A DNA stretch of 64,000 bases from Candidatus Binatia bacterium. GTDB lineage: Bacteria > Eisenbacteria > RBG-16-71-46 > SZUA-252. Both the position numbers and the translations under genes were made by a program. Within the stretch, counting starts at the first letter, position 1, and every line of letters begins with the position of its first letter. The notes below the pieces were generated by a model. The model did not search any database and was not told the origin of the DNA. It saw only the letters and a list, made by a program, of their open reading frames with translations. The stretch lies in contig DASQJL010000108.1 in NCBI GenBank assembly GCA_035631035.1, positions 1 through 64,000 on the forward strand, read 5' to 3'. This document shows, piece by piece, positions 41,844-60,362 of the stretch.

Positions 41844-44800
41844 TCAGAACCTCCGGGTCAGGTGCGGGATGACCGCGTCGGCGACCCTGCGGCCATCCAG
41901 GTTGAGGTGGGCCGGGCGGGTGGACAGCGCCTGCGCGAGCCGGTTGATCGTCCAGTCGTCGAGGCGCATCTCGCCGCCGTTGCTGCTGACCGCCTCGGCG
42001 TGCTTGACGTAGGCGCGGGACTCGGTCGGGGTCAGCACCGCCTCGGGCGAGCCGGTCGCGTTGTACCCGAAGTCTTTGAGCCAGCCGCCCGCGTCGTAGC
42101 CGTGCCCGTGGCCGAGTACCCCGAGCACGTCACCGTGGTAGCGGTGCTTGACGTAGTTGAGCGCGGCGAGCAGGTTGTCGTAGCCGTTGTAGATGTTGCC
42201 GTGGCCGGGGAAGGCGTACTGCAAGAACGTCGGCGGCGTGGTCTGCATCAGGCCACGGGCCAGGTTGTTGGGCCAGTTGACGTCGTGCACCTTCTGGATC
42301 GCCAGCTCGTTGCCGCTGGACTCGGTGACGATCTGGCGCAGCACCGCGTTGACGTAGTCGTTGCTGGCCGGGAATCCGTTGTCCCGCAGCGCCTGCTCGA
42401 CGGTGGCCCGCCACCGGTTCACGCCGGTGCCGGCCGCCTTGCCGGGGTCGCCACCCCCGGCGATGCCCGAGTTGACCCGGGCCGCGCTGGTCAGGATCTG
42501 CTTGATGATCCCGCCCCACAGCCCGCCGACGGTGACGTTGGCCGCCTTGGGTGCCGCCGTGCCGCCGCCGGGGACGCTGACGAACTTGTCGCCGAGCTGC
42601 GGCAGGTACATGACGTTGGGGAAGCTGAGCACGTTCGACGTGTGCGGGCCGATGAGGATGCCGTCGCGGGAGTTGGCCGCCTCGAAGTTCAGCCCGCCGA
42701 GGTTACCCATCGTGTGCCCGGCGTTGAACCCGACGGTGAACGTGCCGGTGCCCGGCTTGAACCCGTGCGCGGTCAGGAACGCCCGCTCGTTGCCGGTGAC
42801 GAAGTACCGCTTGTAGTCGGCGTTGCCGGTCAGCCGCGCCCACACCTCGCCGACCAGCGACGAGCAGTCGTAGGCGGTCGGCCCGTTGGCGCCCATCACG
42901 TAGGGCAGCGGGTCGACGGTGCCCTTGAGCCAGTTCTGCACCGCCGCGACGGACGAGCCGCCGGCCGCCGAGGACAACACGCCGGCCGAGCCCATCAGGG
43001 CGTTGATGTTCTGCTGGATCGGCTCCCACCAGGTGTCGATCGGCTTGTTCAGCGGCAGCACGAACCCGCCGCCCGAGTAGAACCGGTCGGCGTTGATGGC
43101 CTCCAGTGCCATGCGGTGCTTGCGGGTGGACTTCGCGTTGACCACGAACTCTTCGGCGTTGAGCATCGCCGGGATGTTGTCGGCCGCGTCGTGCGGCGAC
43201 CAGCCGCCGACCAGGCCGCCGGCCGCCTTGAACTGGACGGGACCCTTGTGCTGCGGCACTGGGCCGAACGGCACTGTCTCACCAGTCGACGGTGGCGTCC
43301 ACTGCACAACGTCGATGCCGTACAGCTTCGCGAGCTGCGCCAGCCCTTGGTACTGCTGGTAGATGTGATCGAGGCTGATCTTCGCAGAGCCGTTGTCGGT
43401 GATCTGCAAGTTAAATTGGTGGTCGAGCAGCTTCGAGTTTTCGTAGAGAGCCTTGGCCGCATCCTTGGTCAGGTTCAGGTGACCCAGAAGATCACCGAGG
43501 GCCTTCCCCTGCTTGTCAAACGCGGTGTTCGCGTCGTCAACCGCCCGCCGGGCCAGCTCGTTCTGGTGCCGGCTGCTTTCCAGCGTGTTGGCGTAGTTTT
43601 CGTGGGCCAGCTTGAGGTTGCGCTGCTGTTCCAGTTCGTTGCGGCGCGACTCGGCAAGGCTGTGCTTAGCGTCGACCACGTCGGGCGTGCCCTCGACGCC
43701 CTGCTTCTGCGCGAGTGCGAGCTTGTCGCGCAGGGCCGGCGCGTCGGCCTGAAAGTCGGCGAGCGCGTTGCGGGCCTCGTCGAGGCTGACCACCGCCTGG
43801 CGACGGGCCAGCGCCTCGGCGGGCAGGCCGCGGGTCTGTACCTCGGCCAGTTGCGCCTCGACGAGCCGGATCTTCAGCTCTTCCTCGTTGTCGCCGATGT
43901 CGCGAACCTGCCGCTGCAAATCCTTGAGGTTCTGGATCGCGTCTTTGCGGGCCTGGGTCAGCGACTTCTGCGCCTGCTCGGTGGCGTAGTGCGCCTCGGC
44001 CAGACCGTGCTCGGCCTCGGTGACACCGTGCAGCGCGTTCTCGTTGGCCTGTGCGGTGGACTGCGCGGTCTGCGCCGCGCTGTACCGGGCGTCGTCCGCG
44101 CTGCGCTGCGCGCTGAGGTAACTGGCGTACGCGTCGGCGACCGTGTTGACGGTCTTGACCTCGGGGCTGAACTCGTCGCCGAGCTGGCTCTGGAAGTTGG
44201 AGAAGACCGTGTTGTTGGCGGTGATCGCGTCGGTGACCTTCTTCCACGACACCGCGTTCTGGTCAAGCGCCGGGGTCAACGCGTCCATCGCGGCCTTGAC
44301 AGCCTCGGCGGCGGCCTTGTCGTCGGTCAGCGCGTCGGCGGCGGCGTCGAAGTCCTTTTCGTTGAAGTACTTCTTGACGGCGAGAATCGGCGACAGGGCC
44401 GCCAGTCCGGTGGGAGTCTTGTCGGCTGCACCCTGCTTCGTGCGGATCGCGTCGATCTGCGCCTGGATCGCCTCGGGGCTGCCGCTGGCGATGGCCTGCA
44501 CGACGCTGGGCAGTTCCACCCCGTACTTATGGGAGTGCAGGGCCAGGTCACGCAGCGCCGAGTCGCCGGCCGCCAACTGGCTCACAAACTCCTGCGAGAT
44601 CTGGCCGGTGGACTTGTAGCTGTCGGCAAGTTGCTTGAGCGACGACGCGAGGGTGTCCGAGGTCTGCTTCTGTGCGGACATGGCACCGGTGACGCTGCCG
44701 ACGGCCGCGCCAACCGCGGCGCCACCAGCCGCTGCAACCGGGCTGCCAAACATGCCGACACCGGCACCGACACCGGCGCCGGACAGCGCGCCGCCGAGGA

Positions 44801-46607
44801 TCGGGTGACCCGCATTGGCCAGCGCGCTACCACCAGCGGTGGCCGCCAGCGAAGCGCCGAGAATGACGCCGGTACCCAGTCGACTATTCGCCAGCGCGCC
44901 CATGCGGCCGAAGAAACCAGGCTGAGCTTGCGGGCCAGCCGGCCCGGTGTACATGCCGAAGCCGACACTGCTGGCGGAGGTAGTGGCGTTGTAGCCTTTC
45001 GCGGCGGCGGTGGCCTCGGCCCACATGGTCTTGACGCCAATAGCCGCCGCCCGAACCCGCGCCCCGAACACGGTGTACGCGGCGGCGATGGTGAGGATGC
45101 CGGCCGCGAAGCCGGGATTGCCCATCTGTGACAGCCCACCCACCAGGGAGGTGACGCCGTCCACAACATCGCCGACGACCGACAGCACCGGGTGAAGCAC
45201 CGCGTACAGGTCGGTGAACGCCTTGACCAACTTGCCGATGTCGACCACCGCGGCGTCGATGAAGTCGAGGAGTCCCTTGAGGAACCCGACACCCTTCGGG
45301 TCGGTCAGGTCGGCGACCAGCGTGCCGAACGCCTTGCCGATCGCCGGCCCCTTCTTGGCGATGGCGTCGATGTACTGTGCCGCGTTGCGCGCCGCGGTGG
45401 CCATGCCGGGCAGGGCCGCCTGGGCGAACCCGGCCAGCCCCTGCTCGATCTTGGGAAGTGTCTTGCCGAGCGGCGTGAGTACGTCGGCGATCTTCGGCTT
45501 GAGCGCCGCGAAGTCGATGCCGATCTGCGGGATGACCAGCGCCAGCTCGTCGGCAAACGGCCGGGCCGCGCCTTGCAGGGTCTGGCCCATGTCGGCGGCG
45601 AGGCTGGTCGCGGCAGCCTTGACCCGGTAGTCCTTGGCCGCGATGACGATGCCGGTGGCGATGCCACCGACGCCGAAGCCGAGCGCGACCGCAGAACTGA
45701 TCGCGGCGCCAATGAGCGGCGCCCCGGCGGTGATGCCGATGGCGATGGTGCGGGCCGCGTGCGGGCCGACGCCGCCGATGCCGGGCAGCACGTTCAGGTA
45801 CTCGGCGAACTTCCGGAAGCCCTGGGTGCGCTCGTTCTGCTCGCGCTTAGCGTTTTCCCGGTACGCCTGCGCCTCGGCCTTGCCGAGGACCTCGCGCTGC
45901 TTGCGGGCCTTCTCTGCGGCGGCATCCGCGTCGTCGGCGGCCTTCTTGTTGCGACGGTCGTTCTCGGCGTGCGCGGCGCGCTCGGCCTTTTCGATGTCCT
46001 GTTGCAGCTTCTGGGCGTCGGCGACCTTCTTAGCCGTGCGCTGCCGATCTTCGTTGTACGCCTGCTCTTCTAGGCGGCCCATCTTGGCGCGCTGCGCCTG
46101 CGCGCGGCGGTAGTCCTCGGCGTACGCGGCCACCTCGGCGTCGGCACGCTTCTTGGTCGCCGCGACCGACGCCGCCGTCGCGGCGGCCTCCCGGCGCGCC
46201 TTTTCCCGGTATGCCTCAGCCTCGGCCGACCCCATCTGCTTCTGGGCGGCCCGCTGCGCTGCGAGCAGATCGGTGACCTGTTGCCGCAACATGCGTTGCT
46301 GCACCGGCGATATGAAATCGCCTTCGGCCTCGACCTTAGCCTTGACGGTGACCTTCTCGGAGGACAGCGCCTTGAGCTTGGCCTTGGCCGGCGCGGTGTC
46401 CACATCGGCCTTGACCTTGGCGGTGGTCTTGCCGGCCTCGTCCGCCGCGGCCCTGACCTTGGCGACCACGGCTGCGGTGTCCGCCTCGACGGTGACCTTG
46501 ACCTTGGTGCCGGCGGTGGCTTCCTTGAGTCCGGCGGTCAGCTCCTCCTTGAACCTGGAGAAGTCCGGCTTGATGGCGATGAGTGCTTCTTCGATGACAG
46601 TCGCCAT
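41844..46607 (-). CDS. Tape measure protein with two wall-hydrolase domains, 1587 aa
   Basis: The longest gene. The N-terminal 270 residues are coiled coil (EAEAYREKARREAAATAASV), membrane segments lie near residues 300-320 and 560-640 (GVGGIATGIVIA, GGSALANAGHPILGGALSGA), and more coiled coil follows to about 1130. Near residue 1246 YDCSSLVGEVWARL with the His of GHTMGNLGGLNFEA near 1300 is an NlpC/P60-type peptidase; near 1427 IVTESSGNELAIQ is a lytic transglycosylase domain. The length sets tail length, and the enzymes open the wall for DNA entry. Ends at the Dit gene. Confidence 0.95.
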   Translation of the reverse strand: MATVIEEALIAIKPDFSRFKEELTAGLKEATAGTKVKVTVEADTAAVVAKVRAAADEAGKTTAKVKADVDTAPAKAKLKALSSEKVTVKAKVEAEGDFISPVQQRMLRQQVTDLLAAQRAAQKQMGSAEAEAYREKARREAAATAASVAATKKRADAEVAAYAEDYRRAQAQRAKMGRLEEQAYNEDRQRTAKKVADAQKLQQDIEKAERAAHAENDRRNKKAADDADAAAEKARKQREVLGKAEAQAYRENAKREQNERTQGFRKFAEYLNVLPGIGGVGPHAARTIAIGITAGAPLIGAAISSAVALGFGVGGIATGIVIAAKDYRVKAAATSLAADMGQTLQGAARPFADELALVIPQIGIDFAALKPKIADVLTPLGKTLPKIEQGLAGFAQAALPGMATAARNAAQYIDAIAKKGPAIGKAFGTLVADLTDPKGVGFLKGLLDFIDAAVVDIGKLVKAFTDLYAVLHPVLSVVGDVVDGVTSLVGGLSQMGNPGFAAGILTIAAAYTVFGARVRAAAIGVKTMWAEATAAAKGYNATTSASSVGFGMYTGPAGPQAQPGFFGRMGALANSRLGTGVILGASLAATAGGSALANAGHPILGGALSGAGVGAGVGMFGSPVAAAGGAAVGAAVGSVTGAMSAQKQTSDTLASSLKQLADSYKSTGQISQEFVSQLAAGDSALRDLALHSHKYGVELPSVVQAIASGSPEAIQAQIDAIRTKQGAADKTPTGLAALSPILAVKKYFNEKDFDAAADALTDDKAAAEAVKAAMDALTPALDQNAVSWKKVTDAITANNTVFSNFQSQLGDEFSPEVKTVNTVADAYASYLSAQRSADDARYSAAQTAQSTAQANENALHGVTEAEHGLAEAHYATEQAQKSLTQARKDAIQNLKDLQRQVRDIGDNEEELKIRLVEAQLAEVQTRGLPAEALARRQAVVSLDEARNALADFQADAPALRDKLALAQKQGVEGTPDVVDAKHSLAESRRNELEQQRNLKLAHENYANTLESSRHQNELARRAVDDANTAFDKQGKALGDLLGHLNLTKDAAKALYENSKLLDHQFNLQITDNGSAKISLDHIYQQYQGLAQLAKLYGIDVVQWTPPSTGETVPFGPVPQHKGPVQFKAAGGLVGGWSPHDAADNIPAMLNAEEFVVNAKSTRKHRMALEAINADRFYSGGGFVLPLNKPIDTWWEPIQQNINALMGSAGVLSSAAGGSSVAAVQNWLKGTVDPLPYVMGANGPTAYDCSSLVGEVWARLTGNADYKRYFVTGNERAFLTAHGFKPGTGTFTVGFNAGHTMGNLGGLNFEAANSRDGILIGPHTSNVLSFPNVMYLPQLGDKFVSVPGGGTAAPKAANVTVGGLWGGIIKQILTSAARVNSGIAGGGDPGKAAGTGVNRWRATVEQALRDNGFPASNDYVNAVLRQIVTESSGNELAIQKVHDVNWPNNLARGLMQTTPPTFLQYAFPGHGNIYNGYDNLLAALNYVKHRYHGDVLGVLGHGHGYDAGGWLKDFGYNATGSPEAVLTPTESRAYVKHAEAVSSNGGEMRLDDWTINRLAQALSTRPAHLNLDGRRVADAVIPHLTRRF

Positions 46608-47460: not shown

Positions 47461-48054
47461 TCAGGTCTCGTCCGGGTTGAGCGTGTCCGAGCCCATGATC
47501 TTGAGGATCTTGGAGCCGTCGGTCGGCTTCTCCAGCGAGAACGAGCACACGATGAGCTGCTTCTGCGTGCCCTTCTTGTTGTCGATGTTGAGCGACCCGC
47601 CATTGAGGACGCGCCGGAAGATGAAGCGCAGGTCGTTGTTGGTCGGGTCGGGGCTCGCGTCCCAGCCGAGCATCACCCGCTGCTCGGTGCCCAGGTCCGG
47701 CGGCTCGAATGTCCAAGAGGTGCCGTCCCCGAGAATCACGCCGCCGTTGAAGGCGATCTGAAGATTGCGGTAGGTCATTTCCGCCAGCGACACGTCCACC
47801 TTGGCCTCGCGGGAGGTGGGCGTGTAGGCGATCGGCTCCAGCTCCTCGGCGACCTCGACCTTGTCGATGGTGGTCGAGTAAGTGAAGGTGCTACCTGCGT
47901 CGGTGTAGCCGAGCGGCACCCAGCCGACCGTGGCCGGGGCGACCGGCGCGGGCCAAGCGTCGGTCTCCGTGGTCGGCTCGGGCGTGCCGAGCGGCGCGAT
48001 GTAGAGCAGGCCGGGCTTACCGAAGCGCACCGCAGCCGAGTGGAAGTTCGCCAT
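47461..48054 (-). CDS. Major tail (tube) protein, 197 aa
   Basis: ATG 48054 after CGGAGGAAAAG. The protein has the strand pattern of tail tube subunits (SAAVRFGKPGLLYIAPLGTP, TFTYSTTIDKVEVAEELEPI, REAKVDVSLAEMTYRNLQIA, FNGG) and lies between the tail terminator and the chaperone pair, its standard position. It polymerises into the tail tube. A terminator-like hairpin precedes the gene, so it may also be set at a separate level from the head genes. Confidence 0.85.
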   Translation of the reverse strand: MANFHSAAVRFGKPGLLYIAPLGTPEPTTETDAWPAPVAPATVGWVPLGYTDAGSTFTYSTTIDKVEVAEELEPIAYTPTSREAKVDVSLAEMTYRNLQIAFNGGVILGDGTSWTFEPPDLGTEQRVMLGWDASPDPTNNDLRFIFRRVLNGGSLNIDNKKGTQKQLIVCSFSLEKPTDGSKILKIMGSDTLNPDET

Positions 48055-48128: not shown

Positions 48129-48542
48129 TTAGACGGCGCGTACAACCATTCGTGCATCCACGATGTATCGCGGAGTGTCGCTGACGGGATCAGGAAGCCA
48201 CAGCACATTGATGACTTCGGCCGCGTCGAGACGCCCGACCGGTGTGACCACCGCGTCGAGGTAGGCAAGAGATTCGATTTCACTGACCAGCGCGGCGGTG
48301 ATGGCTTTCGCCTGCGGGCGCTGGCTGGCGTAAATGTCGAAGCTGATCCGGGCTTCGTCGGCCGGCACATCGCTGCCGGCCTGCGGCGAGCCGCCGACCC
48401 GCGAGAGGATCACGCTGGGCAGCGGCGTGCCCTTCGGCATCGCCATGTAGATCTTGTTGCTGACCAGGGGCGCGACGGACGTGGTGAGCAGCCAGCTCTT
48501 GACCACATCCTCGGCGTCCACATAGACCCGTGGCAGCGTCAT
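48129..48542 (-). CDS. Tail terminator/completion protein, 137 aa
   Basis: Begins MTLPRVYVDAEDVVKSWLLT and carries SVILSRVGGSPQAGSDVPAD, EARISFDIYASQRPQAKAIT, matching the DUF3168/gpU-like layout of tail terminators. The gene order (connector, HK97 gp10-like, this, major tail) agrees. The protein caps the tail tube where it joins the head. ATG overlaps the previous gene by four bases. Confidence 0.75.
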   Translation of the reverse strand: MTLPRVYVDAEDVVKSWLLTTSVAPLVSNKIYMAMPKGTPLPSVILSRVGGSPQAGSDVPADEARISFDIYASQRPQAKAITAALVSEIESLAYLDAVVTPVGRLDAAEVINVLWLPDPVSDTPRYIVDARMVVRAV

Positions 48543-48856
48543 GACCGCAGCTTTCTGACGGCTTCGATGGCGGGCCGGACGTGGGCGCGCTGGCCGACCC
48601 GTTCGCCCTCGACCTCGCCGTACTGGTTGGCGATGGCGTGGCCGAATTCGACGTAGGACCAGAACGGCGACGACGGGTTGCCGATGGCCGCGCCGTTCTC
48701 GAACTCCTGCGCCTGGTAGCCGGCGGCAAGCCGGCCCGAGCTGCCAGCGAACTTCTTGGCGGCGATCTTCCTGGTCTCGTCGACCACGTGCTCGGCGACG
48801 ACCAGGCAGTGCCGCTTCGCGGCCTCGCCGAAGTGCTCTTCGGGTTCGCCGATCAC
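48539..48856 (-). CDS. HK97 gp10-like neck protein, 105 aa
   Basis: GTG 48856 overlaps the stop of the preceding gene. Helical N-terminus (PEEHFGEAAKRHCLVVAEHV, VDETRKIAAKKFAGSSG) followed by PSSPFWSYVEFGHAIANQYG and a conserved basic end (RAHVRPAIEAVRKLRS), the HK97 gp10 pattern: ...P-x-x-x-Y-x-x-x-x-E-x-G-t...h-v-R-P-a. It belongs to the head-tail interface between connector and tail terminator. Confidence 0.8.
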   Translation of the reverse strand: MIGEPEEHFGEAAKRHCLVVAEHVVDETRKIAAKKFAGSSGRLAAGYQAQEFENGAAIGNPSSPFWSYVEFGHAIANQYGEVEGERVGQRAHVRPAIEAVRKLRS

Positions 48857-49200
48857 GGCAGACCCTCCACCAGACGCAATTGGCCGGTCACGTACTTCAT
48901 GCCGAGTACGGTGCGGTGATCGACCCACACCACCCGGTAGACGGTGCCGTCCGCGGTGTCGCGTACCCACGAGGTGTGGGTCAGCGGCACCTCGTCGCAT
49001 TTGAACCGGCGGTACACGCTGGACTGTTCACCGCCCTGCATGATCTCCGCGCCGCTGACTGCCCGGCTGAGCACGGCGCGCACGTTCGACGAGCTGACGG
49101 TGCGGGTGGCCTCGGTGTCGTCGCCGTAGGGTTCGTCGTCGCTCTGCGCGACATCAAGGTCGAGGACGTCGATCAGGTGGGTGTGAAACGGGATCGGCAT
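48853..49200 (-). CDS. Head-tail connector (stopper-type) protein, 115 aa
   Basis: Mixed beta protein (MPIPFHTHLIDVLDLDVAQS, TRTVSSSNVRAVLSRAVSGA, DGTVYRVVWVDHRTVLGMKY, VTGQLRLVE) of the size and position of the head-closure or stopper protein. The GTGA overlap couples it to the gp10-like gene. It is the first canonical neck gene after the 49.2-54.9 kb block of unusual genes. Confidence 0.65.
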   Translation of the reverse strand: MPIPFHTHLIDVLDLDVAQSDDEPYGDDTEATRTVSSSNVRAVLSRAVSGAEIMQGGEQSSVYRRFKCDEVPLTHTSWVRDTADGTVYRVVWVDHRTVLGMKYVTGQLRLVEGLP

Positions 49201-49218
49201 CGACGTCGGCCCCTCTCG

Positions 49219-51159
49219 CTAGAGCGGCCGAACCACCAGGCCGGCGTTGGGACGGATGACGTAGCGGCTGGACGGGGCTGCATGCGGGCGGATCACGTAG
49301 CCGGTACGGGGACGAACCACGTGGCGGGTCAGCACCCGCAGCGGCGGGGCGATGTCGGATTCGATGGCCGTACCGAGGTTGACCGCGCGCACGCGGCTAA
49401 CCGGGAAAGCGGTGTCGGTCTCGACCGCGACGCCGGGGACAATCAGGCTCAGCCGTACCGGGTGGGCGGTGTCCGTCTCGACCGCGGTGCCGAGGCGCAC
49501 CGTACGGGTACGGGTGACCGGCTGCGCGGCGTCGGTCTCGGTCGCAGCCAGTGGGCTGACGGTCTTGACCGGCCGTACCGGGTTGGCGTGCCCGGTCTCG
49601 ACCGCGGCACCGACGGTCAAAGCGCTGAGCGCGCCGTGCGAGGCCAGAGCCGTCGAAGCCGCCGCGGTGGCCGTGCCGATGGCGCGCCGCCTACCGGCCG
49701 CGGTCGAGGTGATAGTGATCGACGAGCTGGCGCCGGCTCCAAAGGAGTGGCGACGACCGGCCGCCGCCACCATCAGCGTGACCGTGATGCCGTCCGCGGG
49801 ACCGGGCTCGGATGCCCCGCCGTGGCTGGCGATCCGGCTGGCGGCCGTGGTGGCGGCGGTGCCGGCGGCCACCTTCTGGAACGTGGCGTGCCCGGACGCG
49901 GCCAGGTAAACGGTCACCGGGATGGTGTCGAACAAGGCGCCGCCGGCAGCGGCGCCAGTCGAATCGATCGCCACCGAAGTCGGCACGTCGGCCGTACCCG
50001 TCCGGTCAGTGGCGCCCGGCGCGTCGATCGAACCGGCACCGGGCAGGTCCGCAGCGGTGCCGATGCGGCCGGTGAAGCCAGGCAGGCCGATCAGTGCGAA
50101 CGCCGACACCGCGTACGGCGCGCCGGTGGCCTTGGCGCCGGTCCCACTGCCGGTACCGGCGCCGCCCGCGTCGGCGCTGCCGGCGTCGGACTTGGCGCCC
50201 TGCGCGGCGGCCAGGGCGAGGTCGGCCACGTCGGCGCTGCCGGTGCGGCCCTGGGTGCCCTGCGCATCCAGGGTGGCGGTTGCCGGCGCGTCAGCGCTGC
50301 CATCAACCGTCTTGCCGCCGGCAGCCTGGGCACTCGATGTGCTCGCCGCGGCGGCGGGGCCGGTGTGCTCGCCACCACCCTCGGCGGCGAGGTCGGCGGC
50401 GCCAAGCAGGTCGACGCCGCCGCCGGTCGGCGCGGTCTGATTGTCGACGCTGCCGGTCGCCGGCAGGTCGGCGGTGCCGTTTCCGGTGTGCGCGCCGGCA
50501 CCGTCGGCGCTGGCGGTGGTGACCGTGGCGGCGGTGCCGGCGACGGTCTTGGTCCCCGTCGAGGCCGTGCTGGCGCTGGCCGGCTCGTCGACCCCACCGG
50601 TCCGACCCACCGTCGAGGTGGAACCGATGCTCGCCGCGGCCGTGGCGGCACCAGCGCCGCTGTGCCCACCCGCGCCGGCCTGCCCGGCGATGACGTCGGC
50701 GCCGCTGACCTGCCCGCTGCCCACCCCACGGTGCACGCCGGGGTTGACGATGGTCGCGGTGGCCGCGACGTTGACCGCGCCGCCGCGCGGGCCGTGCACG
50801 CCGGTGTCGTCGACCGCGCTGGTGGCCGGGAAGTCGAATGCACCCTCGCCGGCCTTGCCGCCCGTGTCGCCAAGCGTGTTGGACGTGGTGGCGACGGCGG
50901 CGGTGCCGGTGGCGTACCGACCGGCGACCAGCGCGAGGCTGCTCGTGTTGGTGGTGCCAGCCTGGCCGGCGGCGGTCTTGCTGCCCGTGTCGGCGAGCGT
51001 CGTGCTGGCCGGCAGGTCGGCGGTGCCGCTGTAGGCGGCGGCCGACGGCGCGCCGAACAGGTCCGGGTCGACCAGCGCGTCCTGCGGCGCGTAGACCGAC
51101 AGGTCGTTGAGGGCGCGGACCTCGGCGACGGTGAGCAGGCTCGGTGCCGGAGCGGCCAT
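49219..51159 (-). CDS. Ala/Gly/Thr-rich repeat protein with three repeat types, 646 aa
   Basis: Residues about 40-300 consist of degenerate repeats of the form TGxGTADLPATxSVDxTG with ADxPA and GTxTxxG motifs (for example NGTADLPATGSVDNQTAPTG and KTVDGSADAPATATLDAQG). Residues about 535-615 have near-exact 20-residue repeats such as RLGTAVETDTAHPVRLSLIV and LGTAIESDIAPPL, and the C-terminus has short RPxxxYVIRP repeats (RPRTGYVIRPHAAPSSRYVI, RP). No enzymatic domain was seen. It resembles a fibrous surface or decoration protein of the virion. It sits between the neck and the paralogue trio. Function unknown. Confidence 0.65.
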   Translation of the reverse strand: MAAPAPSLLTVAEVRALNDLSVYAPQDALVDPDLFGAPSAAAYSGTADLPASTTLADTGSKTAAGQAGTTNTSSLALVAGRYATGTAAVATTSNTLGDTGGKAGEGAFDFPATSAVDDTGVHGPRGGAVNVAATATIVNPGVHRGVGSGQVSGADVIAGQAGAGGHSGAGAATAAASIGSTSTVGRTGGVDEPASASTASTGTKTVAGTAATVTTASADGAGAHTGNGTADLPATGSVDNQTAPTGGGVDLLGAADLAAEGGGEHTGPAAAASTSSAQAAGGKTVDGSADAPATATLDAQGTQGRTGSADVADLALAAAQGAKSDAGSADAGGAGTGSGTGAKATGAPYAVSAFALIGLPGFTGRIGTAADLPGAGSIDAPGATDRTGTADVPTSVAIDSTGAAAGGALFDTIPVTVYLAASGHATFQKVAAGTAATTAASRIASHGGASEPGPADGITVTLMVAAAGRRHSFGAGASSSITITSTAAGRRRAIGTATAAASTALASHGALSALTVGAAVETGHANPVRPVKTVSPLAATETDAAQPVTRTRTVRLGTAVETDTAHPVRLSLIVPGVAVETDTAFPVSRVRAVNLGTAIESDIAPPLRVLTRHVVRPRTGYVIRPHAAPSSRYVIRPNAGLVVRPL

Positions 51160-51217
51160 GCGGTAGACGCCCCTCCCCGGTAGCGGTGGTCCGGCCGGTC
51201 AGCCTGGAACGCGCGGA

Positions 51218-52003
51218 TCAGGCTTGGAACGCGCGGATCAGGCCGTGCACCTGACGGTTTGCGCCGACGCCGCTGGCGTTATGGACGACATACAGGCACG
51301 GGTCGGGGCCGGCGTTGACGATGCTCGACCAGCCCTGCATGGTGGCCGCCTCGGCGATCGGCGCAAGGCCCGGCACCAGGCAGCGGGCCAAGATGAGGTT
51401 GATCGTGCCGGTGCTGCCGGCGTGGGTGAAGCTGGCGACGGCCTGAATGCCCGTGTCACCGGACGCCAGCGGCAATTGCAGGGTGGGCACGCCGCCGGCA
51501 GTCATGTAGCTGGCACCGGTGCTCGTCGCACCGACCCGGCCGGTGGTGCCGGCCTGGTTCGTGTAGGACGCCAGTTGCACCGACGTGAAGCTCATGCCGC
51601 CCGTGGTGGTGACGAACGCGCACACCGTCGAGTAGTCAGTGACCCGCGCGGGCAGGAGCATCCCGAGGCTGCTCGTCGTGGTGTTGCCGGCGACGGTGCG
51701 GTGGCAGAGCCGGTCCCACAGCGAGATCTCGCCGCCGCTGTCGCCGTTGGCGGCGGTCCACGTGGCGATGTACCAGTTCTTGCCGGCAGCGGCGGTGGCC
51801 AGCGGGATCGCGCCCGTGGTGACGTTGGTGCAAATGGTCGCGGTGGATGGCACCGTGCCGGGTGGCGGGCTGCCGTGGTAGCCCCAGGCGTCCTGGCGGG
51901 CCGGCTCGACGAGCGCCGCGTTGGAGCCCGAGCGTTTCACGACGGCGTACGTAACGCCGCCAGCCAGGCCGGCGATCAGTGCGTCACGGTTGGCTATCGA
52001 CAT
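51218..52003 (-). CDS. Paralogous structural-type protein C, 261 aa
   Basis: Begins MSIANRDALIAGLAGGVTYA and contains ISLWDRLCHRTV, SYTNQAGTTGRVGA, and DTGIQAVASFTHAGSTGTIN. The same blocks (LxDRLxHxG, YTNEAGvxGR, DxGvtSVExLTxxxSTGTAG) occur in the next two genes upstream, so the three arose by duplication. The beta-rich, Cys-poor sequence suggests an exposed virion protein. The paralogues at 52010 and 52828 are closer to each other than to this one. Confidence 0.6.
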   Translation of the reverse strand: MSIANRDALIAGLAGGVTYAVVKRSGSNAALVEPARQDAWGYHGSPPPGTVPSTATICTNVTTGAIPLATAAAGKNWYIATWTAANGDSGGEISLWDRLCHRTVAGNTTTSSLGMLLPARVTDYSTVCAFVTTTGGMSFTSVQLASYTNQAGTTGRVGATSTGASYMTAGGVPTLQLPLASGDTGIQAVASFTHAGSTGTINLILARCLVPGLAPIAEAATMQGWSSIVNAGPDPCLYVVHNASGVGANRQVHGLIRAFQA

Positions 52004-52009
52004 GCGCCG

Positions 52010-52831
52010 TCACCCCTGACAGACCGCGACCTGGCCGACCTCACCGAAACCGCCGTCAAGCATGCCGGCAAGCATCAGGCAGGGGTCTGCGCCGAGGTCG
52101 TAGAGGCCACCGGTGGCCAGGGTGATCTGGTCGCCGGAACTGACGCCGCTGCTGATGACCGCACTAAGCGCGGCCACCGGGCGCATCAGTACCACCGAGA
52201 AGTCCCCGGCGGTGCCGGTCGACCCGGACAGGGTCAGGGTCTCCACGCTGGTCACGCCGAGATCACCGGCTTGCAGGTCGCACGGCCCGTACAGGCTGCC
52301 GGCCATTTGGTTGTTGATGGTGGTGTTGTTCCACAACTTGGCCGTGCGCCCGGACACGCCGGCCTCGTTGGTGTACGAGATGGACACCGTACGGGAGGTC
52401 GACCCGACCGGAGTGTTGATCTCCAGGAATATCTGCACCTGCGTCTTGTCGCTCACGCGCGACGGCAGGCTCAGCCCGACCGTCTGGGCGGTGCTGACCG
52501 TGCCGGACAGGCCGCCCCGATGGGAGAGCCGATCGAACAGGTACAGCGGGCCGCGCGTCTGGGCGGATGTGCGGAAGTTCGTGAAGTTGGCCAGGTAGTT
52601 GCTCTGCCCGGTCCCTGGCGCGGGCACCGCGAACGCCCCCGGCGTCGCGGCACTGCACAGCGTCGGCGTGGTCGGCGTCGCGCCGGCCGCGCCGGGCTGG
52701 CCGGGCATCTTCCACCACGAGGCCAGCAACCCGTTGACCAACGCGCCGCTGAACGACCCGTACTTGGCGTACGCGTAGACCCGCTGCCCGGACAGGGCAT
52801 TGAGCAGATCGTCGCGGCTGGCGATGCTCAC
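52010..52831 (-). CDS. Paralogous structural-type protein B, 273 aa
   Basis: GTG 52831 (SIASRDDLLNALSGQRVYAY) overlaps the upstream gene by four bases. It shares with the other two LYLFDRLSHRGGLSGT, LPSRVSDKTQVQIFLEINTP, SYTNEAGVSGRTAK, LQAGDLGVTSVETLTLSGST and ends PCLMLAGMLDGGFGEVGQVA. Likely a beta-sandwich surface protein. Its precise role in the particle is unknown. Confidence 0.6.
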   Translation of the reverse strand: MSIASRDDLLNALSGQRVYAYAKYGSFSGALVNGLLASWWKMPGQPGAAGATPTTPTLCSAATPGAFAVPAPGTGQSNYLANFTNFRTSAQTRGPLYLFDRLSHRGGLSGTVSTAQTVGLSLPSRVSDKTQVQIFLEINTPVGSTSRTVSISYTNEAGVSGRTAKLWNNTTINNQMAGSLYGPCDLQAGDLGVTSVETLTLSGSTGTAGDFSVVLMRPVAALSAVISSGVSSGDQITLATGGLYDLGADPCLMLAGMLDGGFGEVGQVAVCQG

Positions 52832-53694
52832 CCCTGCACCACCTCCAGATAACCGCCGACCGGGCCGGCGAGCTGGCCGGGCACCATGAAGAACAGGCAC
52901 GGGTCCGCGCCCAGATCGGGCAGCCCGGTCTCCGCCCAGCCCAAGCGCACGGGGCCGGTCTGGTTGGACCCGGGCAGCGGGCACACGCCGACCAGTCGGG
53001 CCAGGGTGACACCGAAGTTGCCGGCGGTGCCGGTGCTCGTGGTGAACGTCAGGGTTTCCACGCTGGTGACTCCGTAGTCGCCGGCTTGCAGGTTGAACGG
53101 CCCCCAGATCGTGCCGACCGGCGAAGAACCACTGCCCGGCAGCGCCGCCCCGGTGGCGAGTGTGGCGGTGCGCCCGGCGACACCCGCCTCGTTGGTGTAG
53201 CTCGCGGAAACCGCCGTGCTCGTGGACCCACCGGCGACGTAGATCTCCAGGAAGATCTGCACCTGCCGCTTGTCGGACACCCGCGACGGCAGGCCGGCGG
53301 TAACGGTCTGCGCGTTGCCGGCACTGGTGGAGCTGAGGCCGCCCATCTGCGCGAGCCGGTCATACACCAGCAACTGCGAGCCCATCGCCTGGGCCGTGCC
53401 CGACGAAAACTCGTAGGACTGCACGTTGATCCCGGACAGATACCAGGTCGCGCCGGCGGCTGCGGTCGGCACCGGCGCGGCGCTGACCGACTGGCTGCTC
53501 ATCGTGACGCCGGGTGCGACACCGGCACCGCCTGCTTGGGGCGGTATCCCGGCCGCCGTCGAGTTCGCCCACGACGAATGGTTGCGCATGTACTGCGCGG
53601 TCTGGCTCGGGACGGCGGTCAGGTTCTTGTAGAACGGCAGGATCTTCCGGTTGGCCAGCGCCGCCACAAGCTGCGACCGGGTCGTGATTGCCAC
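52828..53694 (-). CDS. Paralogous structural-type protein A, 288 aa
   Basis: Begins MAITTRSQLVAALANRKILP and shares LVYDRLAQMGGLSS, LPSRVSDKRQVQIFLEIYVA, SYTNEAGVAGRTAT, LQAGDYGVTSVETLTFTTST with genes B and C. The RVSDK(T/R)QVQIFLEI segment is the best conserved part. It probably forms capsid or neck decoration. First member of the trio in transcription order. Confidence 0.6.
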   Translation of the reverse strand: MAITTRSQLVAALANRKILPFYKNLTAVPSQTAQYMRNHSSWANSTAAGIPPQAGGAGVAPGVTMSSQSVSAAPVPTAAAGATWYLSGINVQSYEFSSGTAQAMGSQLLVYDRLAQMGGLSSTSAGNAQTVTAGLPSRVSDKRQVQIFLEIYVAGGSTSTAVSASYTNEAGVAGRTATLATGAALPGSGSSPVGTIWGPFNLQAGDYGVTSVETLTFTTSTGTAGNFGVTLARLVGVCPLPGSNQTGPVRLGWAETGLPDLGADPCLFFMVPGQLAGPVGGYLEVVQG

Positions 53695-53707: not shown

Positions 53708-54061
53708 TCAGGTGATGGTGATGGTCAGCGCTGTCAGGTTGTAGGTACCCTGCCCGCCGTAGGTTTCCGTGGCGGAGAGTGCCGCGCCGCCGTAGAACGT
53801 GCCGCCGGTGGCCGTCGACCACAGTCCGATGTAGCTGATCGAGGTGGAAGCGGGCACGTCAAAGGTGACGCCGCCGGAGATGGCGGCGACGCCGCCCGAG
53901 GCCGTCGACCAGGCAACCGCCTTGCGGGCGTATGCAGGCGTACCGCCGGTGACCTCGTTAGTGCCGGTGGTACCCGGATCGGCGGTGTGCAAGCTGACGT
54001 AGCCGACGTTGGAAGCGACGCCGTTTGCCGCCGCATTGCGACCACTGTTGTTCAATGCCAT
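53708..54061 (-). CDS. Paralogous small structural-type protein, 117 aa (copy 2)
   Basis: MALNNSGRNAAANGVASNVG, YVSLHTADPGTTGTNEVTGG, TPAYARKAVAWSTASGGVAA, and GQGTYNLTALTITIT. About half of the positions match the gene at 54134, so the two form a tandem pair. The sequence is a small all-beta unit rich in Gly, Thr and Ala, fitting a capsid decoration or fibre piece. ATG after GAGGGG. Confidence 0.65.
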   Translation of the reverse strand: MALNNSGRNAAANGVASNVGYVSLHTADPGTTGTNEVTGGTPAYARKAVAWSTASGGVAAISGGVTFDVPASTSISYIGLWSTATGGTFYGGAALSATETYGGQGTYNLTALTITIT

Positions 54062-54133: not shown

Positions 54134-54490
54134 TCACGGTGAAGTCACAGTGACGGTCAGGCTGGTCAACGTGTACGTGCCCTGCCCGGTGAAGGTTTCC
54201 GGCGCGGACAGTTGCGCCGCGCCCTCGTAGGTGCCCGCATTGGGCGCGTTCCACAGGCCGACGTAGGCGACCGTCGTACCGGGCGGCACATTGAACGTGA
54301 CCGGGCCGTTCAGCGAGGCAACACCGTTGGTTTCCGTCCAGGTGATCGGCTGCCGGGCATAAGCCGGCGTACCGCCGGTGATCTCGTTCGCCCCCGTCAT
54401 CGCGGGATCGGCGGTATGCAGGGACGCGAAGGTGATGGCGCCGCCGACACCGGTCGCGGCGGCGTTGCGGCCGGCAACGGTTAGTGCCAT
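54134..54490 (-). CDS. Paralogous small structural-type protein, 118 aa (copy 1)
   Basis: ATG 54490 follows GGAAGGG by nine bases; a TTG start at 54499 is less likely. The protein MALTVAGRNAAATGVGGAIT, FASLHTADPAMTGANEITGG, TPAYARQPITWTETNGV, GQGTYTLTSLTVTVTSP is the twin of the gene at 53708 (shared SLHTADPxxTGxNExTGGTPAYAR). Likely decoration or fibre protein of the virion. Confidence 0.65.
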   Translation of the reverse strand: MALTVAGRNAAATGVGGAITFASLHTADPAMTGANEITGGTPAYARQPITWTETNGVASLNGPVTFNVPPGTTVAYVGLWNAPNAGTYEGAAQLSAPETFTGQGTYTLTSLTVTVTSP

Positions 54491-54513
54491 GGGGCTCAAC
54501 CCTTCCGGTGCTT

Positions 54514-54966
54514 TTACTGGGCGCGGGCGAAGCCAGCGGCGGCGAGCTGCACGGTCACGTTGGTGCCGTCAGTGGTGAACACACAGTCGTGGTAGGTCAG
54601 TGGCACGGTGGCGGCATCGCTGGGCGCGGTGGTGTCGGGCACGTAGCAGAGCAGCAGCTTGGCCACGTCGTTGTTGCTCGCACCGCCGGCCGCCACATAC
54701 GTGAAGTCATTGGCGTCGAAGGCGACGGCGTCGGCCGCGTCGTCCTCATTGGTCACCACGCCGGTCAACGTCATGCGGGCGTAATTGGTGAAGTCGCATT
54801 CGGCGTTGGCGGCAAGCGCGCTGGCCAGGCTGAGGTGATCGGTCAGGATGGCGTCGGACTCGACGCCCGCCTTGAGCAGCACGGCCACGAGCGCGTCGTT
54901 GGCCGCGGGCAACCCGGCGTAGAACCGGAGCGCGCCCTTGGCCACGTTGAATACGCCGTCAGACAT
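54514..54966 (-). CDS. Structural-type protein of unknown function, 150 aa
   Basis: Begins MSDGVFNVAKGALRFYAGLP. Contains a strand region (CDFTNYARMTLTGVVTNEDD) and ends with TTDGTNVTVQLAAAGFARAQ. It sits after the gp6-like connector gene and before the decoration-type pair. The family is common in actinophage structural operons but without assigned function. Confidence 0.6.
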   Translation of the reverse strand: MSDGVFNVAKGALRFYAGLPAANDALVAVLLKAGVESDAILTDHLSLASALAANAECDFTNYARMTLTGVVTNEDDAADAVAFDANDFTYVAAGGASNNDVAKLLLCYVPDTTAPSDAATVPLTYHDCVFTTDGTNVTVQLAAAGFARAQ

Positions 54967-54996: not shown

Positions 54997-55623
54997 CTAT
55001 CCGCGCCAGTGCGCGTCGACTGGCCCGTATCCGGTGCTGAGCGCTGCCGAGCCAGTCGGACGGCCGTACCGGCGGCGCAGCGCGGTTTGCAGGAACGGGC
55101 TGGCGTCCATCTGCGCGGACATCGCGCCGTAGTTGGCGATGAAGTCGTCGAGCTGCAACTGGCTGGCGCCGATCGAGTTGCCGTACGCGCCTTTGATCAG
55201 CGCGAGGACGGCCTGCCGGGCGAGCTGGAGGCGCTGGTCGGTCGGGGCGTACCCGTGGCTGTAGGTCACGGTCACGCCGTAGGGCTGGTTGACCCAGCCG
55301 GTGGTCGCCGAGCGCCACCCGTACCGTCGCCACAGCCGGGCGCGTCGCGCCTGGAGGGTGTAGTCGGTGACCGGCAGGGCGCCGATGCGCACGGCGCTGA
55401 CGTTGATGATTGGCCGCTCGGGCAGCATCAGGTACGGGCCGTGGTCGACCTCGTCGAGGTCGAAGGTGACGGTCTCGTTGTTGACCAGCACGATCCGCTG
55501 GCCGGTGACCGCCTGCACCACAGCGGTGGCGCATTCGATGAGCAGTTCGGCTTTGGCGCGCTCAATGTCATCGCGCTCCAGCAGGCAGGCGAGGTCTTCC
55601 GGCGTCGCGAGCTGATCGGCCAT
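54997..55623 (-). CDS. Head-tail connector (gp6-like adaptor), 208 aa
   Basis: Residues 1-60 form a helical part (EDLACLLERDDIERAKAELL, IECATAVVQAVTG), then the conserved LMLPERPIINVSAVRIGALP, TDYTLQARRARLWRRYGWRS, VTVTYSHGYAP, the pattern of phage connector/adaptor proteins that join the portal to the tail. Gene order agrees. The C-terminal half is basic and helical. A long block of non-standard genes separates it from the next neck genes. Confidence 0.75.
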   Translation of the reverse strand: MADQLATPEDLACLLERDDIERAKAELLIECATAVVQAVTGQRIVLVNNETVTFDLDEVDHGPYLMLPERPIINVSAVRIGALPVTDYTLQARRARLWRRYGWRSATTGWVNQPYGVTVTYSHGYAPTDQRLQLARQAVLALIKGAYGNSIGASQLQLDDFIANYGAMSAQMDASPFLQTALRRRYGRPTGSAALSTGYGPVDAHWRG

Positions 55624-56443: not shown

Positions 56444-56521
56444 GCGCGACCTCGCTTGTCGTATCTATGCATCGCTGACTTCCGATTAGTTCGGCAAGTA
56501 CCATTTGGATAGCATTTGGCC

Positions 56522-57154
56522 ATGGGTCGAAGCGCCGCCAATCCGATCGACAGATACTTGAGCAAAGTGGATCGTGGCGGTGCCGATGAGTGCTGGCCGT
56601 GGACCGCTGCGTGCTTTACGAACGGATACGGTGCGTTCCGGGTCGGAAACAAGCAACTCAAAGCCCACCGATTCGGCTACGCGGAACTGATCGCCCCGAT
56701 CCCGGTCGGGCTGTACGTCTGCCACACCTGCGACAACCGACCATGTCAAAATCCCGCCCACTGGTTTCTCGGCACCACGGGCGACAATGCCCGCGACCGC
56801 GAAGCCAAAGGTCGCGGAGCCCGGAACGGCAAGGTTCGATTTCAACCCGAACAGGTGCGAGAGATGCGACTGCTCGGCCTGAACGGAGTCACCCAGGCCG
56901 AGATCGCCAACCGCTTCGAAACTCAACAGTCATCGGTCTCACAGATACTGCGTCGCAAGACCTTCGCCCACCTCGACACCGACCTACCGGCATGGAAGAC
57001 GAGCCGCAGATACAAAGTCACACCAGCCATTGCGGACGCCGTACTCGCCGAACGCGGTCACGGGTTAACCATGAATGAGATCGGCGAGAGGCACGGCGTC
57101 AGCCGTGCCACCGTGAGGCACATCATCCGAGGCTGGCGACCGCTAGCCCACTAA
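56522..57154 (+). CDS. HNH homing-type endonuclease, 210 aa
   Basis: Opposite-strand gene between the major capsid gene and the next head gene. N-terminal part (CWPWTAACFTNGYGAFRVGN, and LYVCHTCDNRPCQNPAHWFL) is the HNH_3 homing endonuclease pattern: CHxCDNxxCxNPxHLxxG. The C-terminal part has two helix-turn-helix-like segments (TQAEIANRFETQQSSVSQIL and TMNEIGERHGVSRATVRHII). It probably cuts a homologous capsid region of related phages and spreads itself. Its stop overlaps the end of the capsid gene. Clearly an inserted element. Confidence 0.9.
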   Translation: MGRSAANPIDRYLSKVDRGGADECWPWTAACFTNGYGAFRVGNKQLKAHRFGYAELIAPIPVGLYVCHTCDNRPCQNPAHWFLGTTGDNARDREAKGRGARNGKVRFQPEQVREMRLLGLNGVTQAEIANRFETQQSSVSQILRRKTFAHLDTDLPAWKTSRRYKVTPAIADAVLAERGHGLTMNEIGERHGVSRATVRHIIRGWRPLAH

Positions 57155-58095
57155 CTCAAAAGCAGCGAACCTACGGGGTACCGGTCCGCCTCCACCGGCT
57201 GGTCGTTGTTGATCGTGTTGGACACCTGCCAGCCGACCCGGAAGGTCAGGCGGATCGCGGTCATGTCCTGCTGCGGCAGGTTGTAGACGATCGCGCCGGT
57301 GTTGTCCTGGATGACGGCCTGGTCGAGCACCTTCATGGTGATGTCCTGCCGGACGCCGACCACGAACTGGTCCCAGTCACCGCCGAACAGCCGCGGGCTG
57401 CCCGAGGCGGTCGGCCACAGGCCACGCATCGGGTACGCGATAGGCATGCCGTCGAGCGTGTCGACCGCGCCGCTGACCCGGCCAGTGTCCAGCTTGCGGC
57501 CCTGCGAGTCACGGGCGGTGCGCAGCTTGGACTTGGCGCTGGTCGCGGCGACCCAGCCCTTCACGTCGAAGCCGTCCGCCTCGACCGCGCCGTAGACCTG
57601 GTCGACGTCGCCGAAGTAGCCGCCGGCCGTGGCCGCCGAGCCCTCGGTGGTGTCGTTGCCGGCCGCGGTGACCGCGGCGTTGATGTTCGTCGGGAACGAG
57701 GCCGGGGCGTTGGTGCCGAAGAACACCGCCGAGTCGAGGGTGCGTGCCATCGCCTCGGTGAGCAGCGGCATCGCCTCGTCCCAGATGTTCGCGTCCACGT
57801 CGGCCAGCACGTTGTCCGGCACCGGCATGATGGTCGCGATCTCTTCGATGTTCAGGTACTTGTTTGTCCAGTTGACCTCGGTGGTCTGCTTGAGGCCGGT
57901 GTCCCCGGTGACCCAGTACGCGACCGGCAGCGCGGACAGCACGGGGAAGCGCACCTGCGCGCGGCCGACCGGCACCCGGCGGAACATCTGGAGCACGGCG
58001 GACTGCTCGGTCGCCTTGCCCAGCATCTCCTTGGAGACTTCCTCGGGGATAAGGGCGGCAGCGTCGCTGCGGGAGGTCAAGTTGGTGAAAGCCAC
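57151..58095 (-). CDS. Major capsid protein (HK97-fold), 314 aa
   Basis: GTG 58095 after GAAAGGGG. Sequence features of HK97-type capsid proteins: SDAAALIPEEVSKEMLGKAT, the strand RVPVGRAQVRFPVLSALPVA, EEIATIMPVPDNVLADVDAN, IWDEAMPLLTEAMARTLDSA, FFGTNAPASFPTNI, and the C-terminal VRQDITMKVLDQAVIQDNTG. It follows the scaffold gene, as usual. It forms the icosahedral shell. No signs of a fused protease. Confidence 0.9.
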   Translation of the reverse strand: MAFTNLTSRSDAAALIPEEVSKEMLGKATEQSAVLQMFRRVPVGRAQVRFPVLSALPVAYWVTGDTGLKQTTEVNWTNKYLNIEEIATIMPVPDNVLADVDANIWDEAMPLLTEAMARTLDSAVFFGTNAPASFPTNINAAVTAAGNDTTEGSAATAGGYFGDVDQVYGAVEADGFDVKGWVAATSAKSKLRTARDSQGRKLDTGRVSGAVDTLDGMPIAYPMRGLWPTASGSPRLFGGDWDQFVVGVRQDITMKVLDQAVIQDNTGAIVYNLPQQDMTAIRLTFRVGWQVSNTINNDQPVEADRYPVGSLLLS

Positions 58096-59396: not shown

Positions 59397-60362
59397 CTAG
59401 GTGATGTACCCGTGCAGACGTAGCAAGCGCAGCAACTCGGTCCGGTTGTCCCCCGCGATCTGGTAAATGCTCTCAGGGGTCAGTCGGATCACCTTGCGCT
59501 TCTTGCCGGCACCGAGGCGCTGCCCGGCGAGGCTGCGCTTGGTCACGCCTATCTGGGTGGCACGTAGCTGGCGCCCGGCCATCTGTACCCAGCGCATCTG
59601 CCGGCGGGCGTTGACCACTTGGAAGATGTCGGCGCCGTGCTCGCGGATCGCTGTCGCGCCAGCCTTGGTGAACACGCGGTTCTGTTCGTCCTCGATGAGC
59701 GAGTCGAAGTACGCGTGCGGGTCGGTGGTGTAGTGCCGGCCGTAGTCCTCGGACGCGGGCACGTGGATGCAGTCGCAATTGGGGTGGCGCTTGAACCCGG
59801 CGTTGGACTTGTACCACTTGCCGGCCAGGATGACGCACCGCGCGCACGAGGGCGGGGTGAGCATCCTGATGTAGCCCTCGGCATGCCGGGCAGCGTTGAT
59901 GGCGACCCCGACCGGCACGCGGGCCGCGTCGGAGATCTGGGTGTCCACGATGCGCTTGAGCCGGGTGCCGGCCTCGGCGAGCGCCACATCGGCCGCCGCG
60001 CCCTGGTCGATCGCGTTCTGCGCCCCGACGGCGGGTACGCGCAGCAGACCATCGAGGTCGTTGCCGTCGGAAGCCGTACCGACGAACGCGGTGGGCGACA
60101 CCGTGCCGTCGGAGTCCGGGTCGACACCCTGTACGTCCAGCGCCGCGGTGACGTACTGCTGGGCACCGGATGCGGCGGCGTATTGGGCGGCCCGCATGAG
60201 CTTGCCGATCGTGGGCGCGACGGTCCGGTCCCAGCTCCCGGCCGGGTCGTTGCGGTTGACCCGTCGCCACAGACCGTCGACCAGTCGCCAGGTGTTAGTG
60301 GCGGTGACCTGGGTGACGTAGCGGCGCTGGGCGGCGAGTGCGGCCAGCTCAGCCGGCAGCAC
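59397..60362 (-). CDS. MuF-like minor head protein, 321 aa
   Basis: GTG 60362 overlaps the portal end by 14 bases. The conserved part near residues 190-250 (EGYIRMLTPPSCARCVILAG, KWYKSNAGFKRHPNCDCIHV) has the Cys pairs of the MuF C-terminal domain, which is needed for assembly and ejection-protein packaging. The C-terminal basic region reads KRSLAGQRLGAGKKRKVIRL. It stands in the usual position after the portal. No fused toxin domain was seen. Confidence 0.85.
   Translation of the reverse strand: MLPAELAALAAQRRYVTQVTATNTWRLVDGLWRRVNRNDPAGSWDRTVAPTIGKLMRAAQYAAASGAQQYVTAALDVQGVDPDSDGTVSPTAFVGTASDGNDLDGLLRVPAVGAQNAIDQGAAADVALAEAGTRLKRIVDTQISDAARVPVGVAINAARHAEGYIRMLTPPSCARCVILAGKWYKSNAGFKRHPNCDCIHVPASEDYGRHYTTDPHAYFDSLIEDEQNRVFTKAGATAIREHGADIFQVVNARRQMRWVQMAGRQLRATQIGVTKRSLAGQRLGAGKKRKVIRLTPESIYQIAGDNRTELLRLLRLHGYIT

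Follow-up and report, generated by a model that had tools for sequence, protein, structure and literature searches.

The window analysed here comprises bases 1-64000 of a 65,379-base contig (C108) from a 3.35-Mb genome. That this contig belongs to a temperate phage or a prophage is indicated by genes for a tyrosine integrase, a Cro/C1-type regulator, a primase-polymerase and a family A DNA polymerase. Genes between the capsid and the tail tube are often left 'hypothetical', and this locus raises the question of what a 646-residue protein built almost entirely of short repeats does among the neck genes of a phage.

Reading frame and repeat architecture

The repeat protein is encoded on the minus strand (Table 1), with an ATG at 51159, the ribosome-binding sequence GGGGAGGGG upstream of it, and 18 nt between its stop codon and the next gene. 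The GC content at the three codon positions was 0.70/0.67/0.89, similar to that of the neighbouring genes, and was mirrored (0.89/0.64/0.70) in an antisense ORF at 48880-51183; therefore, the minus frame was considered the coding one. The plus-strand translation of 49219-51159 was unrelated to the repeat protein. It is hardly credible that the ORF is spurious, a frame forced open by GC-rich DNA, or that it encodes a non-virion protein. The long antisense ORF and a low-complexity product with no full-length relative would suit such a reading, but the codon-position GC, the ribosome-binding sequence, the 18-nt gap and the homologous ETDTA units in unrelated phages argue against it.

Table 1. Features of the repeat protein and of the neck region around it
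Feature	Position	Strand	Evidence or remark
Head-tail adaptor, upstream border of the island	54997..55623	-	phrog_442, E 8.8e-21
Linked partner, 150 aa, proposed anchor	54514..54966	-	phrog_26662; AlphaFold2 model, mean pLDDT 92.8; structural match to Bxb1 gp31
Gp80-like protein, copy b	54134..54499	-	PF23140 / phrog_240
Gp80-like protein, copy a	53708..54061	-	PF23140 / phrog_240; weak sequence match to 9c39_K, 8jou_a
Tandem paralogue C	52828..53694	-	43% identical to B
Tandem paralogue B	52010..52984	-	real start probably internal; homology to C from residue 52
Tandem paralogue A	51218..52003	-	32% identical to B
Repeat protein, 646 aa, likely appendage	49219..51159	-	ORF and coding-frame evidence
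N-terminal 44 residues, predicted helix at 11-19	51028..51159	-	AlphaFold2, block 11-20 mean pLDDT 71
Degenerate GTADLPATGSVD-type array, 23 units of 20 aa, residues 53-514	49618..51003	-	period and unit finding; weak at 421-515
Five ETDTAxPV units, residues 515-613	49321..49617	-	matrix; homology to IMG/VR arrays
Short VVRP/YVIRP/LVVRP tail, residues 614-646	49222..49320	-	autocorrelation and motif positions
Neck gene, downstream border, stopper by order only	48853..49200	-	no family match
Tail terminator	48129..48542	-	phrog_123, E 1.5e-11; PF11367

The original prediction had described three repeat families in this protein; the ORF is present, and repeat detection bore out all three types against shuffled sequences. 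BLOSUM62 autocorrelation gave a lag-20 peak for residues 41-345 (z 6.2, equalled by 0 of 2000 shuffles), peaks at lags 39 and 20 for residues 509-610 (z 6.9 and 6.5, 0 of 2000 shuffles) and a lag-8 peak for residues 606-646 (z 4.8, 1 of 2000 shuffles). Residues 421-515 alone had no significant period, 1040 of 2000 shuffles equalling it. De novo unit finding placed the GTADLPATGSVD-type array (the GTADLP array), which is very degenerate in sequence, in a 20-residue register of 23 units, with a score of 277.7 against a maximum of 253.4 in 60 shuffles. The ETDTA units start at residues 515, 535, 555, 574 and 594, and their score was attained by 0 of 1000 shuffles. All five, consecutively, fit the skeleton G-x-A-x-E-T-D-x-A-x-x-(I/L/V), and among 282 ORFs scanned in the window the repeat protein was the only one over the threshold of the ETDTA matrix. 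The YVIRP/LVVRP motifs of the C-terminal tail, of the type (Y/L/V)V(I/V)RP, are at residues 621, 633 and 641, and an extra VVRP was read at residue 614.

Kinship between the GTADLP and ETDTA repeats was expected at first, since both have a period of 20 and start with G-T-A. A single superfamily was rejected after two profiles gave no excess over shuffles at residues 44-515; the two families have their 20-residue spacing in common and no detectable common profile.

Alanine, glycine and threonine make up 49% of the residues, and there is no Cys or Trp. The array is preceded by residues 1-44, with no globular N-terminal region and no Pfam domain. The AlphaFold2 model was poor (mean pLDDT 40.4), which counts against the claim of a folded stalk; in this model the GTADLP part was unstructured, and strands were predicted at residues 497-601 with block means of about 50-69 pLDDT. 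Brushes of the polyglycine/polyproline-II type (Bxb1 gp33, S16 type) have tandem GGX triplets. The repeat protein has 12 GG and no tandem GGX, and this type was rejected. With regard to a whisker like T4 fibritin, Pfam gave no match at E ≤ 1, and no long helix was seen in the low-confidence model.

Database searches with the repeat protein gave no match in Pfam or PHROGs at E ≤ 1, in NCBIfam or among PDB sequences. A recognisable carbohydrate-binding or other binding domain was absent by Pfam, PHROGs and NCBIfam, and no profile matched a known enzyme; such a match is what the original prediction had named as contradicting its reading. Whole-protein relatives were not found in INPHARED, plasmids, the PDB or 193 relative genomes besides its own, and the pattern QDALVDPD from the N-terminal 44 residues gave no confirmed relative. 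In 13 loci of IMG/VR and in a single genome contig, matches fell in or around the ETDTA part. A text search of the literature did not find the string ETDTAQ, a weak negative, as sequence motifs are seldom printed.

Such repeats had also been described as familiar only from unannotated phage and metagenome proteins. This calls for correction: Streptomyces phages of the genus Hiyaavirus have ETDTA arrays in proteins labelled minor tail protein or hypothetical. The arrays matched the repeat part of phrog_14065, a family matched by 8 of 10 related or neighbouring proteins scanned, the other two being L012 and Pam4_35.

An island in the neck operon

On the minus strand, the adaptor is followed by the partner gene, two Gp80-like paralogues, three more paralogues, the repeat protein, the neck gene and the tail terminator. 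By gene order, we take 57151-58095 to be the capsid protein, 60349-61842 the portal and 47461-48054 the tail tube. The predicted position between adaptor and stopper is supported on the adaptor side by phrog_442, and phrog_123 identifies a tail terminator downstream; the stopper itself is assigned by order only.

The two Gp80-like proteins scored 48.9 bits (copy a) and 42.6 bits (copy b) against a PF23140 gathering cut-off of 27 and are 57% identical to each other. By sequence, copy a weakly resembled chain 9c39_K of the Sf14 neck (E 0.00072). Pfam, PHROGs and NCBIfam gave nothing for the three tandem paralogues at 51218-53694 (261-324 aa, 32-43% identical). Five genes and 3.4 kb separate the partner from the array in the window, which counts against the explanation preferred below.

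The gap from adaptor to tube was 1628-1745 bases in all 14 relatives with both hits, among 108 loci selected by capsid or portal protein, and 6943 bases in the window, an approximate comparison of alignment ends in the relatives with ORF ends in the window. The surplus of roughly 5.2 kb is an island inserted between adaptor and tail tube in an otherwise compact neck operon; it would consist of the partner, the Gp80-like proteins, the paralogous proteins and the repeat protein. Immediately ahead of the repeat gene, a 20-nt tandem duplication at 51202-51241 (95-100% identical by two repeat finders) spans the paralogue A stop codon and may have been left by recombination at the island.

Linkage of the arrays to the partner gene

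The partner matched phrog_26662 over residues 1-148 (E 4.3e-29). Twenty-five loci with ETDTA arrays were assembled: 13 from IMG/VR with the repeat protein as query, one Geminicoccaceae MAG, eight more from IMG/VR with the 20-unit protein L008 as query, and three of five Streptomyces phage records that L008 also found. The duplicate L021 was left out of this set, and L009 and L011, near-copies of L006 and L010, were counted. A partner homologue was present in 19 of the 25, downstream of the array in L014 and L027. In the six loci without it (L007, L009, L015, L023, L024, L029), no more than about 1.3 kb of contig is left upstream of the array.

The reverse search started from the partner. A scan with its single sequence found nothing; alignment A2 gave more than 600 candidates, of which 600 were examined. 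A relative was encoded by 412 of these, and the best 80 went forward. These were scanned with a position-specific ETDTA matrix built from 200 segments of 18 proteins. Among these best 80 of at least 412 partner loci, 54 had an array ORF, a count that does not represent independent events because near-duplicates occur (e.g., L050/L051, L057/L059, L061/L062, L099/L100 and L083/L084) and L065 is Hiyaa again. In total 56 of 2067 ORFs in these best 80 scored, all on the strand of the partner, against 0 of 2067 shuffled ORFs. The array ORF started less than 200 nt from the partner in 25 of the 54, and some overlapped the partner or ended just before it.

The other 26 of these best 80 had no matrix match. 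Eight of them had an ORF with a period of 18-22 no farther than 6 kb away (z above 5, and in six above 10), and 14 others had less than 2.5 kb left after the partner. In L039, L040, L068 and L110, at least 4 kb followed the partner and no array was found by the matrix or period criteria; three degenerate units could be seen by eye in L039. Partners with no detected array (cyanophage Pam4, L040, L068 and L110) count against strict pairing.

For the base rate, 108 loci selected by capsid or portal were used (80 and 33 rows, five of them common; 99 distinct contigs by name), with capsid identities of 67-86% across the 80 capsid rows. The partner was found in four of the 108 and the array in the identical four (L114, L141, L148, L158), never one alone. 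The base rate is thus low and the agreement of partner and array complete, in a control that is less than independent because the phages are related, and many loci are also short. Among the 47 genomes of the phylum search, phrog_26662 was found in one, namely the window's own.

In Hiyaa gp13 and its relatives (phrog_14065), arrays with the same 20-residue ETDTA skeleton have the partner gene immediately upstream and lie between capsid and adaptor genes. Hiyaa gp13 differs in its length (1110 aa) and in its long N-terminal domains, which match phrog_14065 positions 1-403, whereas the repeat protein has the GTADLP array in place of such domains and does not itself match phrog_14065.

Fold of the partner

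The AlphaFold2 model of the partner (Table 1) had no significant match in a Foldseek search of the PDB, the best being 8jou_a (E 0.086). VIA-align was run on Foldseek's top chains. Its best match was chain 9d93_Ra, the tail wing arm gp31 of Bxb1 (Z 9.9, rmsd 2.2, 101 aligned residues, 21% identity), the molecule name 'Tail wing arm, gp31' being taken from the PDB sequence hit for the 9d93 chain. It was followed by GP4 fibre I (Z 8.4), the Sf14 neck chain (Z 7.2), the Bas63 connector (6.6), and then by baseplate-arm and tail-fibre proteins. Arginine methyltransferases at ranks 13 and below (Z ≤ 4.5) were taken as background. A partner profile had one match among PDB sequences, again the Bxb1 gp31 chain (E 0.62, non-significant), and BFVD matches included several tail-collar fibre proteins. 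By these best matches, the modelled partner appears to have an appendage-attachment fold like those of Bxb1 gp31, GP4 fibre I and the Sf14 neck chain.

The Bxb1 tail wing (PDB 9d93) combines the gp31 arm with a brush, gp33, described as a polyproline-II bundle (PMC13243192); it differs in lying at the tail tip and in the non-significant sequence similarity of gp31 to the partner. Sf14 neck whiskers (PDB 9c39) are alike in the fold of the partner and in the Gp80-like match to chain K, which we infer from its length to be the whisker protein. Sf14 is a myovirus, and in the available portion of its description the whiskers are gp30/gp31 assemblies attached to the neck via the adaptor, with no 20-residue repeat fibre reported (PMC11821841). 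The Ralstonia phage GP4 has fibre I (PDB 8jou), a PF23140 (Gp80) protein, and so resembles the window in both the Gp80-like pair and the partner fold; it differs in being a podophage, and its capsid paper nowhere mentions gp80 or the fibre.

Placement in relatives and role of the repeat protein

Partner and array lie between the capsid and the adaptor or tail genes in Hiyaavirus, L042 and L101. In L101 a beta-helix-like protein, just under the cut-off (Beta_helix, 25.3 bits against 25.9), stands between them. In L031, L032, L080, L043, L055, L035 and L071, the pair comes after tape-measure, J-like or other tail genes; ten large upstream ORFs were examined for these placements, of which that of L078 was a primase and those of L067 and L057 matched no tail family. 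In L141, L148 and L158, some 7-8 kb separate the pair from the capsid gene, which lies downstream of it. In Pam4, the partner follows tape-measure and baseplate genes beside an annotated polysaccharide lyase, with no clear array adjacent. Tallies of neighbouring PHROGs, which drew on 84 of 229 gene calls downstream and 85 of 226 upstream, are a mere hint of mixed context, because genes were called mechanically and some calls probably have a wrong frame. Pairs among tail genes or upstream of the capsid gene count against a neck-only placement, and since pairs also occur near the tail tip the cassette is portable.

In L031 (9371-12424), ETDTA units occur within a 1018-aa ORF after the tape-measure gene, and its long C-terminal region is tail-hub-like by eye.

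The strongest hint of position came from L114, whose capsid is 86% identical to that of the window. Here the partner is followed by one 387-aa ORF comprising DUF4082 (80.9 bits, cut-off 28.4), four scored ETDTA-type units and a tail terminator (PF23841, 34.0 bits, cut-off 27; phrog_123, E 7.7e-19), and a tube-like ORF comes directly after it. The terminator part matched the terminator of the window weakly (E 0.011). This fusion, found in one contig only, hints that the array belongs at the head-tail junction and suggests a directly testable position in the virion.

Other relatives also have added domains. Laminin_G_3 heads were above the cut-off in L006 and L047 and just below it in L004 and L050, and many relatives have C-terminal ends of short repeats, comparable in kind to the YVIRP tail. 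At a guess, the three paralogues beside the repeat protein might supply the head that it does not have.

On this evidence, the repeat protein is probably a virion appendage, a fibre or brush, at the head-tail junction, and the partner is its likely anchor. The 20-residue repeats would act as a stalk or spacer. As an anchor, the partner would have counterparts in the tail-wing arm, whisker and fibre-adaptor proteins of other phages. Contact with a surface, if any, might fall to the repeats, to the short tail at the C-terminus or to other proteins, for example the three paralogues. The repeats, the linkage to the partner, its fold similarity, the insertion and the L114 fusion were observed; we infer from them that the protein is present in the virion, its oligomeric state, that it touches the partner directly and that it adheres to a surface. 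A point against this explanation is that the GTADLP array matches neither ETDTA-type profile. The linkage to the partner, the repeat type, the portability and the fusion to a terminator are new.

The suggestion of a flexible neck fibre thus gains indirect support from the attachment fold of the partner, the neck island and the relative in which ETDTA units are fused to a terminator. Binding to a host surface or polysaccharide fared less evenly: lectin-like or DUF4082 heads in relatives and an island beside a beta-helix-like protein favour it, and the repeat protein, with no binding domain of its own, does not. The neck fibres of Anabaena phage A-1(L) are also flexible and fixed to the neck by a dedicated anchor protein; they differ in being bead chains of many copies of a small trimeric protein, with genes far from the neck (PMC10966104). 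Their distal module is described there as not binding the host, which advises caution in assuming adhesion.

Three other readings were weighed against an appendage at the head-tail junction. A hydrophilic, disordered spacer or brush that binds no specific ligand and, for example, disperses particles or sets a distance seems rather doubtful, and it overlaps with the preferred explanation, which leaves adhesion open. The residue composition, the GTADLP part predicted as unstructured and the missing binding domain agree with such a brush, but the strict 20-residue register over about 460 residues and the conservation of ETDTA positions speak for a constrained structure, the model has strands in the ETDTA part, and many relatives have binding-type domains. 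We consider it unlikely that the protein sits at the tail tip or baseplate periphery despite its neck-operon gene, with the partner a baseplate-arm protein as in Bxb1. The top structural match of the partner does come from a tail tip, several pairs follow tape-measure or J-like genes, and L031 has its array in an ORF with the tail-hub-like region; against this, the genes of the window, Hiyaavirus, L042 and L101 lie between the capsid and tail-tube genes, and the closest capsid relative with the pair, L114, has the array fused to a tail terminator.

Very unlikely, finally, is a head fibre or capsid decoration on the shell rather than the neck. It would account for Gp80-like neighbours that match phrog_240, 'head protein', and for Sf14, Moo19 and B2 it has been proposed that decoration proteins contact surfaces or stabilise capsids. 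The partner, however, resembles neck, tail and fibre attachment proteins and no named decoration proteins, and arrays are also found among tail-tip genes and joined to a terminator.

Beyond this locus, we tentatively propose that the partner and the 20-residue-repeat protein may form a portable, unnamed class of appendage, possibly with one anchor fold, an exchangeable head or tail, and an extendable stalk whose repeats would have a new beta-structured fibre fold. It would move between neck, tail tip and other places in actinobacterial, proteobacterial and environmental phages and would sometimes be held covalently in the tail-terminator ring. If the appendage reading is right, a phrog_26662 anchor with a 20-residue array would be a two-gene signature by which such appendages, at neck or tail, could be recognised in hundreds of environmental phages, and would account for a low-complexity family now named 'minor tail protein' in some records. 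That the cassette moves between neck and tail tip is also relevant to the ways in which phages acquire additional points of surface contact.

Several other features of the window were recorded. A 1016-aa tail protein at 37438-40488 on the minus strand has about 26-30% identity over 160-210 residues to the middle of Hiyaa/Galactica/Keanu gp13/gp11, and one domain is therefore common to tail and neck proteins. A 1587-aa tape-measure-like protein (41844-46607, minus strand) has a transglycosylase SLT domain near its C-terminus. Within the head operon, an opposite-strand ORF just after the capsid gene (56516-57154, plus strand) resembles an HNH-type homing endonuclease by eye, and a HIT-domain protein (PF01230; 59008-59385, minus strand) was found by tblastn in only one of the 108 capsid/portal loci. 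In the non-structural part, a tandem array at 2779-2943 contains 4.7 copies of a 35-bp unit with 98% matches.
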